The notes under the pieces are model-generated. The model ran no database searches and was not told the DNA's origin. It saw only the letters and a program-made list of their open reading frames with translations. From Paracyclopina nana (lineage: Eukaryota; Arthropoda; Copepoda; Cyclopoida; Cyclopettidae): a DNA stretch of 64,000 bases. The stretch is taken from NCBI GenBank assembly GCA_019096065.1, contig JAGUCH010000001.1, positions 10,912,001 through 10,976,000 of the forward strand, given 5' to 3'. The number at the start of each line of letters is the position of its first letter. Position 1 is the stretch's first letter. Made by a program: the position numbers and the translations under genes. Of this stretch, positions 28,665 to 31,600 are shown in pieces.

Positions 28665-31600
28665 GTGGAGAGACAACAAACCAAGCCAATTAATTTCAGT
28701 TGAGCCAAAATCTACTACACATATATTATATGGTAACGATCTGAGAAACGGAAAAATATCGTAGGGCAAGGCTGTTGTAAAATTAGTGCGTATACTCTGT
28801 AAATATGGTGGAATTGCTTCCGTTTACATTTTAACTACTGATGTAAGGTATTATTATGAGGAGGAAGTAATGCTGCTGGTCGTTATTATAAAGTTACACC
28901 TAGCTAAACTAAGTTGTGGGTACTAAATGTGAGAAAAAGTGGCTTTAGTGGAAGTAGAACGTACAGCAAAAAGGGAAAGGTGGGATTTCTGTCAAAAATA
29001 TTTGGAGCCTTGCGGTGGTCACGTTTTCTATATAGCAGAGTAATGCAGTAGTGCGACTTTCCGATTTGACAGTTTTCCCATTAAATGTACAATATGCAAG
29101 GTGGTGTATACGCATAGGTAGTGTAATGCGATCTACTGAGAAAAAAGGCCTTGGCAATAATTAGTGTAGCCACTCTTCCCCTCACAGCCCAGCTGAGATG
29201 AGTTATGGCTAGTGTTATAGCAATTCTACGAAGGAAGTGAATTATAGCTTTAAATGCAGGAGAGTAGCCGAGGATGTATAACAGTAATAATAAAAGTAGA
29301 AGTAATGGAGAGGGTCACTTAGGGTGAATGTTACCTACCATCAGCACCGTATATAAGAAAGAGACATTTTGTAATTATTTAGTATATATACTGTATTGTA
29401 TAGGCTAAATGAGAGAGAGAGGCGGAAAGCGAACATAAATTGGAAAGATGGCTTTTTTAGATAGCAATTCCCGGGGGAGTATTTAATCTCTGCGAGTCAA
29501 GACATTTCCACCGTCAAAATTGGCATTGACGCGTGAAAAATCCTGGCTCACCAACAACAGGGAAAATACTTTCAGCATCATCATCGACGAGAGGATTTAG
29601 GTTACTTTTGCTGCTTTCATTTTTTTTAAAGCATGCCATTTCAAGATTACCCTTAAAAGTGATTGTAGTATACAGTTAGATAGAAATGGGGCGTGGATTC
29701 GTAGCAGCTGAGGTACTTATCTTTTTCTTTTGCTCGTTGAAGTTGTCGATGATCACACCAATGAACAAGTTGAGCGTGAAGAACGAGCCGAAGATAATGA
29801 AAAAGACAAAGTAGAGGTACATGTAGATGTTCACTTCTCGGATTGGTTGCTGTCCGACCTGAAAAAATAGATTTACATGGAGTCTGCAGCGGAGACAGCA
29901 AAAAAGTGGTGCATCTGTGAAATGTGCACTCTACCTCTCTGGAATCAACCGAATCTTTGAGTATGCCTGCCCAGCCTTTGAAAGTGGCCACTTGAAACAA
30001 GGCCAGATAAGCGTTGGGAACGTGGTCGAAATTGACGACCGAGTTCGCCCAGCTATAATTACCAGCAGCAGCCAGACATGCAGCCTCGTCTGGTATCTCA
30101 CTGGCTAACAATTGATTCCCATCCATGTCCAAGCACTATATGGGGAAAACAGCAACAACTAAAAAAATAACGAACAAGCAGCAACATAATAAACAACGCA
30201 ATGGATGCATGCAAAAATAAATTAGTAATTAGGCCATCAGTCAAGATTACATGCAGCTAGCAAGGTACATTTAATAATGGCAGAAGGAGAGTTGACGCAG
30301 ATGCGAGAAACGGCAACTTTATGTGCATAAAATGCAAAGCAGACTAACTTCTCTCGAGTCAATGGCATCGTTCATGATCGGCTGCCAGCCCTTGAAGGTG
30401 GCCACTTGAAAGAGGGAGATGTAGGCGTGGCCCACGTGGTCAAACGTGATCTTGGAGTTGACCCATTCAGTGTTGTTTTCCGCGAGGCAGGTCACGACGT
30501 CAGGCACGATTTCGGCGCTTACTTTCTCGCCAGTGAGGATGTCAACGCACTGCAGCAGGGTTAATTTGGGTTAATGGTTGTTATGCTATACTACTACTCT
30601 TGTTCTTCAGCTCAATAGTCGAGGGAAAAAACCAGTGCCCATTGAGAAAGCACTTTCAAAAACGGACATGACGACTATCAATCACGCGTCTTTGCATTCA
30701 TTGGTTAGTCAGATGTTAGCTCTTCGTTTTCACCAGTTAATTTGAGTAAGTACCTTGTAGTATTTGCCGGCGAACATTTGCACTCCCATGATGGCGAAAA
30801 TGAGCCAGAAAATGAGGCACACGAGGAGCACGTTGAAAATGCTGGGGATGGCTTGCACGAGAGCGTTCACGACGACCTGTAGGGAAGCAAAGCGTGAGAA
30901 TAAGCCAGTAGTTACAGTGGGTCAACCAGAGCCGGCCACCGAAGGTGGAAGAAAAAAGCTTCACTTTATCTTGTTAGTGAGAAAAACATTGTTAGTTACC
31001 CTCATGCCCTGCATCCTTGACATGGCCCTTAGGGGCCTTAAGGCTCTTAATGTTCTCATGGTTTTAAATGCCTGGATGCCACTGGCACCGAGAAGAGCAG
31101 CGGTGAAGTTGATTAGCGACACCTTCGGAAAAGAGTTGCGTTAGTATTGCACCCAGCGAAGCATGCCTAGAAATCCAAATTTGGGCCTAGCTGCGTACTT
31201 TCATGCTCTGGAGGCGCGAGAGCGCCCTCAAAGGCCTGAAACCCCTCAGGGTTCGCATAACTCTGAAGAAAGGGATGTCAGCTAGCCCCGCCCACGAGGC
31301 AATCAAGTTGAGGATTGAAAACTGAATTCAGAAAATAATGCGTCATCATTTATCATATGGTTTTGGGGGCATTTGAAGCATGTAGGTAGTGTGGCATCAT
31401 CAGCTTTCAAATACTGCTCCCCATTTCCTCTCCCAAGTTTTTATGTTCATAGCTTTGCGTTAAAATGCTGTCATATCCCAGAGGGACACAGTTGAAAATA
31501 GGGCCTGAAAACTGTGCGGCTGCCGCAGGAGCGCGTGGAAAAAAGCTCATTTTTCATGTATGGCCATATAGCCGTATAAAGCGTGTATACTAGTACCACG

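Follow-up and report, generated by a model that had tools for sequence, protein, structure and literature searches.

Can a single para-like sodium channel gene in a copepod supply its channel with either of two versions of the domain III pore loop? The question is raised by a 64,000-nucleotide stretch of the Paracyclopina nana genome (hereafter the window), in which an initial annotation proposed two interchangeable exons for this loop. Both exons were read directly on the minus strand (exon A at 30549-30349 and exon B at 30135-29935). As had been claimed, each is 201 nt long and in phase 0, starts with Cys, ends with DSRE and contains the identical filter segment FQVATFKGW.

The para/Nav1 gene and its two pore-loop exons

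The gene was mapped by tblastn with the para proteins of L. salmonis (Lepeophtheirus salmonis; P0004, para isoform X10 by name) and T. californicus (P0123, read as this species from its label TCALIF_05863), which placed exons between 49516 and about 26.9 kb (Table 1), the last open frame ending at 26899-26901. From domain II on, spliced alignment gave GT-AG exons and a para-like protein, in which the variable II-III linker was wrongly split. The filter residues read from the exons were D, E, K and A (TQDYWE in domain I, CGEWIE in domain II, FKGW in domain III and TSAGWD in domain IV), and matches listed in the protein search carried the name para (match names being the shortened names of cluster representatives). 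By its filter and its matches the channel is classed as para/Nav1, and neither as Nav2 (with E in domain III) nor as Cav, which bears out the assignment of the pair to the domain III pore loop of a Nav1-type sodium channel. Neighbouring open frames on the plus strand encode a BTB domain (14725-16737) and an F-box (19413-20378), and a 1405-codon open frame at 1449-5666 (minus strand) was without a Pfam match.

Table 1. Mapped gene, exons and intron of the P. nana window (positions are those of the window)
Feature	Position	Strand	Description or basis
para/Nav1 gene as far as mapped	26902..49516	-	tblastn with P0004 and P0123; filter D, E, K, A
Domain III S3-S4 exon, first copy	31199..31321	-	123 nt; tblastn with L. 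salmonis first copy
Domain III S3-S4 exon, second copy	31000..31122	-	123 nt
Domain III S5 flanking exon	30754..30876	-	ends GKYYK; spliced alignment, GT/AG borders
Exon A	30349..30549	-	domain III turret, P1, filter lysine, P2; 201 nt, phase 0
A-B intron	30136..30348	-	213 nt, GT-AG; pyrimidine-rich stretch before B
Exon B	29935..30135	-	second version of the pore-loop exon; 201 nt, phase 0
Domain III S6 flanking exon	29717..29858	-	VGQQPIRE...NEQKKK; 90-92% to three copepod models

All introns around the pair were GT-AG (S5-A, A-B and B-S6: 204, 213 and 76 nt, respectively). With slashes at the splice sites, the borders read ctgctgcag/TGC...GAA/gttagt for exon A and ccatatag/TGC...GAG/gtagag for exon B, flanked by the donor AAG/gtactt of the S5 exon and the acceptor ttttttcag/GTC of the S6 exon, and the coordinates given earlier for the four junctions of the two routes (30754-30549, 30754-30135, 30349-29858 and 29935-29858) were right. 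The acceptor of B has a pyrimidine-rich stretch and that of A a poor one, and the donor of A (gttagt) has T at +3; this contrast is a plausible basis for regulation.

A and B are adjacent homologues of equal length and phase, as in an exchangeable exon pair, and each is an open stretch of 67 codons. They share 35 of 66 residues in a gapped alignment, and 105 of 201 nucleotides in an ungapped one (96 differing). Codon positions 1, 2 and 3 were identical in 40, 50 and 25 of 66 cases, respectively (position 2 versus 3, P = 2e-5), a pattern of greater divergence at third positions than in the protein, indicating constraint at the protein level. The nine filter codons (30385-30411 and 29971-29997) are nearly the same DNA in A and B (identical codons 6/8, versus 9/25 elsewhere; P = 0.10, not significant), a similarity that might reflect codon bias or local conversion.

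A search of the genome (91.95 Mb, 10 contigs) with B gave six matches: B itself, A (E = 4.9e-17) and four other places with one pore exon each, which were read as Nav2 (L003, whose pore exon carries FEGW), two Nav1-like genes (L004 and L005) and a Cav-like gene (L006). Judged from these comparisons, the likeness of A and B is far beyond chance. Both exons passed the Pfam cut-off for Ion_trans, and both matched solved sodium channels in sequence, the best chains being those of the cockroach channel NavPaS (PaFPC1) and its chimeras.

Both versions in other copepod gene models

Related proteins were collected by a search with the B isoform, of which the best 120 of 6697 matches were taken, and by a second search with the B segment of P0003 (label Tk03327, read as T. 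kingsejongensis) as query, which gave 8 matches among 13 candidates. Two domain III pore segments were present in 3 of the 127 distinct proteins listed by these searches and one in the other 124, as counted by a motif, so that a copy lacking the motif would be missed. The three proteins with two segments were those recognised as copepod, and each carried an A-type followed by a B-type segment; both versions are present in the gene models of three further copepods. A 300 aa query for partial relatives returned three candidates, none of them scoring.

A tree of pore exons was built from 28 rows: the window genome and the copepod models contributed 11 exons, and 17 rows were hand-picked from the 124 other proteins, with L006 and the other 107 proteins left out. 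The four B rows grouped together (81/91), as did the four A rows (87/88); these values are below the tool's mark for strong support, which was reached by 5 of 25 inner branches, and the branching orders inside the A group and the B group disagree. From the grouping of the four A rows and of the four B rows, with moderate support, one old duplication before the split of the window, L. salmonis and Tigriopus lineages appears likely. The Hyalella row of the tree has extra residues at its start, and the Hyalella model looks mis-spliced. This amphipod Nav model (P0006, Hyalella azteca) shows an unusual domain III pore with a piece missing at the S5 end, which could reflect a mis-spliced model or another alternative exon.

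Exon B is the more variable of the two, with 36-53 of 65-66 residues shared between species, relative to 52-62 of 67 for A. Exon A of the window was 91% identical over 68 aa to its L. salmonis counterpart; exon B reached 66% over 68 aa to the B segment of P0003 and 57% over 65 aa to that of L. salmonis. The L. salmonis B exon has an altered filter flank (AIFKGW) and end (DSSG) and a branch length of 0.81 in the tree. It shares 36/65 residues with each of the other B exons and 35/65 with its own A, so that its placing rests on few sites. Constraint on both copies is seen in the codon-position pattern together with the comparison of four species, and is weak for L. salmonis B.

A probable choice between two outer pore mouths

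When the A and B exons of the four species were aligned (eight rows, 68 columns), 24 columns were invariant, 3 showed fixed differences and 16 held non-overlapping sets of residues (in one case B has a gap). Two Cys and KGW are kept in all eight rows, and B keeps FQVATFKGW in three of the four species. The filter lysine of domain III is K1237 of rat Nav1.4 (PMC5295241), which puts the residue that follows KGW at position 1240, as stated in the initial annotation. In the order window, L. salmonis, T. kingsejongensis and T. californicus, this position holds Q/L/I/I in A, followed by Pro in all, and A/T/A/M in B, followed by G/G/T/T. A glycosylation motif is found at residue 25 in all four A exons and at 26, 10, 10 and nowhere in the B exons; net charges are -6, -6, -4 and -4 for A and -6, -6, -7 and -4 for B. 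The alignment places the change in the turret, the outer ring and the P2-to-S6 stretch, with the filter lysine unaltered, in line with the differences noted earlier in the turret and just after the filter.

From the anatomy, the splice borders, the reading frames and the relatives' copies, all observed directly, we infer that this copepod para/Nav1 gene uses A and B as mutually exclusive exons (probability roughly 0.8), and likewise that their use would be regulated and would affect the channel. Between the S5 exon (end 30754) and the S6 exon (start 29858), each transcript would carry A or B but not both; the outer mouth of domain III in the resulting DEKA channel would come in two forms, and domain III as a whole, combined with the S3-S4 pair upstream, in up to four. 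The swap would alter the turret, positions 1240-1241 and the P2-to-S6 stretch and keep the filter lysine, and its most likely effect would be a cell-type- or stage-dependent tuning of the outer pore (conductance, slow inactivation, or contacts that the turret makes to partner subunits or glycans).

That the pair serves to switch sensitivity to tetrodotoxin and saxitoxin, in animals that graze on toxic algae, is compatible with mutually exclusive use and seems unlikely. The sets at position 1240 do not overlap between A and B, the window keeps the domain I Tyr and the outer-ring acids of domains I, II and IV, and changes in the outer ring are described as altering toxin binding (PMC4436565). 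Residue 1240 nevertheless varies among the B exons, and in T. californicus B it is Met, the same residue as in Nav1.4. The aromatic site of domain I, after TQD, is tied to high tetrodotoxin affinity; it is Leu in L. salmonis (P0004), Val in T. californicus (P0123) and Tyr in the window (exon at about 40.6-40.9 kb), the comparison among relatives covering these two models since P0003 is without domain I. Both species keep B although high affinity is already unlikely in them, and in Acartia a mutant Nav isoform, with its change outside the toxin site, was of no clear benefit when the prey was toxic (PMC4468163). One effect of the choice may be to tune toxin binding; given the domain I residues and the T. 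californicus Met in species that still keep B, this is unlikely to be the sole reason for its conservation.

Mutual exclusion itself has to be weighed against the gene models, since A and B are present together in all three relatives' predictions. In the L. salmonis model both S3-S4 exons are strung together as well, and in that of T. californicus A and B are separated by additional residues foreign to the channel; on these grounds the joint models are probably prediction artefacts, which suggests that copepod gene models stringing A and B together are wrong. In the window, transcripts with A, with B, with both and with neither would all be in frame and stop-free, so that messages with both exons or neither would escape nonsense-mediated decay and the frame does not enforce exclusion. 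The introns contain six pairs of inverted repeats of 10-14 nt (counted without a shuffled control), none convincing as RNA pairing, and Rfam gave zero matches at gathering score in 29-32 kb.

The same in-frame joins and three-species models, along with the greater variability of B between species, would also fit an optional or poison-like B, mostly skipped or else joined to A; the resulting channel, with its domain III P-loop doubled, would be non-functional or dominant-negative and so lower the channel number. This is decidedly improbable: the conservation of B (Cys pair and KGW in 4/4 species, FQVATFKGW in 3/4) would be needless in a non-functional insert, B has splice borders of its own (seen in the window only), and the L. 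salmonis model that joins A to B treats the S3-S4 exons in the same way. Decay of B into a duplicate with no role in this species might be read from the long branch and AIFKGW flank of the L. salmonis copy, and is very improbable given that in the window its frame is open and its splice borders are intact, that codon position 2 is conserved and that window B has 43/66 and 44/66 residues in common with its two Tigriopus counterparts. An artefact of genome assembly or of haplotypes is extremely improbable, since the copies differ at 96/201 bases and both recur in three other models.

Pore-loop pairs in related channels

Exons 15a/b (domain II pore) and 31a/b (domain III P-loop) of NALCN and exon 12a/b of Cav3 are described as pore or turret splice pairs (PMC4436565, PMC6259924, PMC3557258, PMC9694082). 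The earlier suggestion that a pore-loop pair would be novel therefore held in part: no such pair was found described for Nav1 in the open-access literature searched, as far as excerpts of it go, and in the wider channel family pore-loop pairs are already known, so that one in Nav1 may be new.

Like NALCN 31a/31b and 15a/15b, A and B are tandem and, putatively, mutually exclusive exons over the re-entrant P-loop in one domain of a four-domain channel, and NALCN exon 31 likewise belongs to domain III, where it includes the distal turret (PMC3557258). The NALCN pairs, unlike A and B, swap the filter residue (E or K); A and B both have K, with the differences around it, and a NALCN-like selectivity switch was rejected because FQVATFKGW is identical in the two. 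NALCN is also a different gene from Nav1, A and B differ at about half of their positions, and insects and crustaceans have reportedly lost NALCN exon 31a. Cav3 exon 12a/12b (domain II turret) resembles A and B in changing an extracellular loop with the filter residues untouched, and the choice shifts ion preference (PMC9694082, PMC4436565). It belongs to another gene and domain, its two forms are unequal in length whereas A and B are equal, and it stops short of the filter and P2. A and B include both of these and extend to DSRE, and were thus not taken as a turret switch of the exon 12 type.

Within Nav1, the domain III S3-S4 pair (18A/18N of Nav1.6) is also mutually exclusive and in the same domain, and affects the voltage sensor, not the pore; the 2026 review of human channels that describes it covers S3-S4 pairs of domains I and III (both PMC13011093), and oyster Nav1 has exons 5 and 7 in the I-II linker (PMC5295241). 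A pair of the S3-S4 type adjoins A and B upstream in the same P. nana gene. In insects, the members of the domain III S3-S4 pair are named k and l. The Nav1 splice variants found described change voltage sensors or linkers, whereas the choice of A or B would affect the main action-potential channel at its pore mouth, the binding site of tetrodotoxin and saxitoxin. The two exons would form a natural matched pair for probing, with the filter lysine held constant, what the turret and P2 of domain III contribute, and might offer copepods that eat toxic algae a testable route to tune their channels.

Tentatively, a wider proposal can be made, which we regard as possible: copepods may have used mutually exclusive splicing of the whole Nav1 domain III outer-pore module, with DEKA kept and in combination with the S3-S4 pair, since before the split of harpacticoids and siphonostomatoids. 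One gene would then yield channels differing in conductance at the outer mouth, slow inactivation or block by guanidinium toxins, and the pair would be the first pore-loop splice switch in Nav1.

In Calanus finmarchicus, segments 6, 8 and 9 of the NaV1-I contig group, which runs from repeat II to the C-terminus, each come in exactly two variants (PMC3929608). These may include a pore exon pair; the passages on them assign no position in the pore. Three Nav1 genes were proposed for Calanus (PMC3929608), and three Nav genes are described for L. salmonis (PMC9209418). The two further Nav1-like genes of P. nana (L004 on contig C2 and L005 on contig C9), each with a single pore exon within a long open frame, agree with such reports of several Nav1 genes in copepods.
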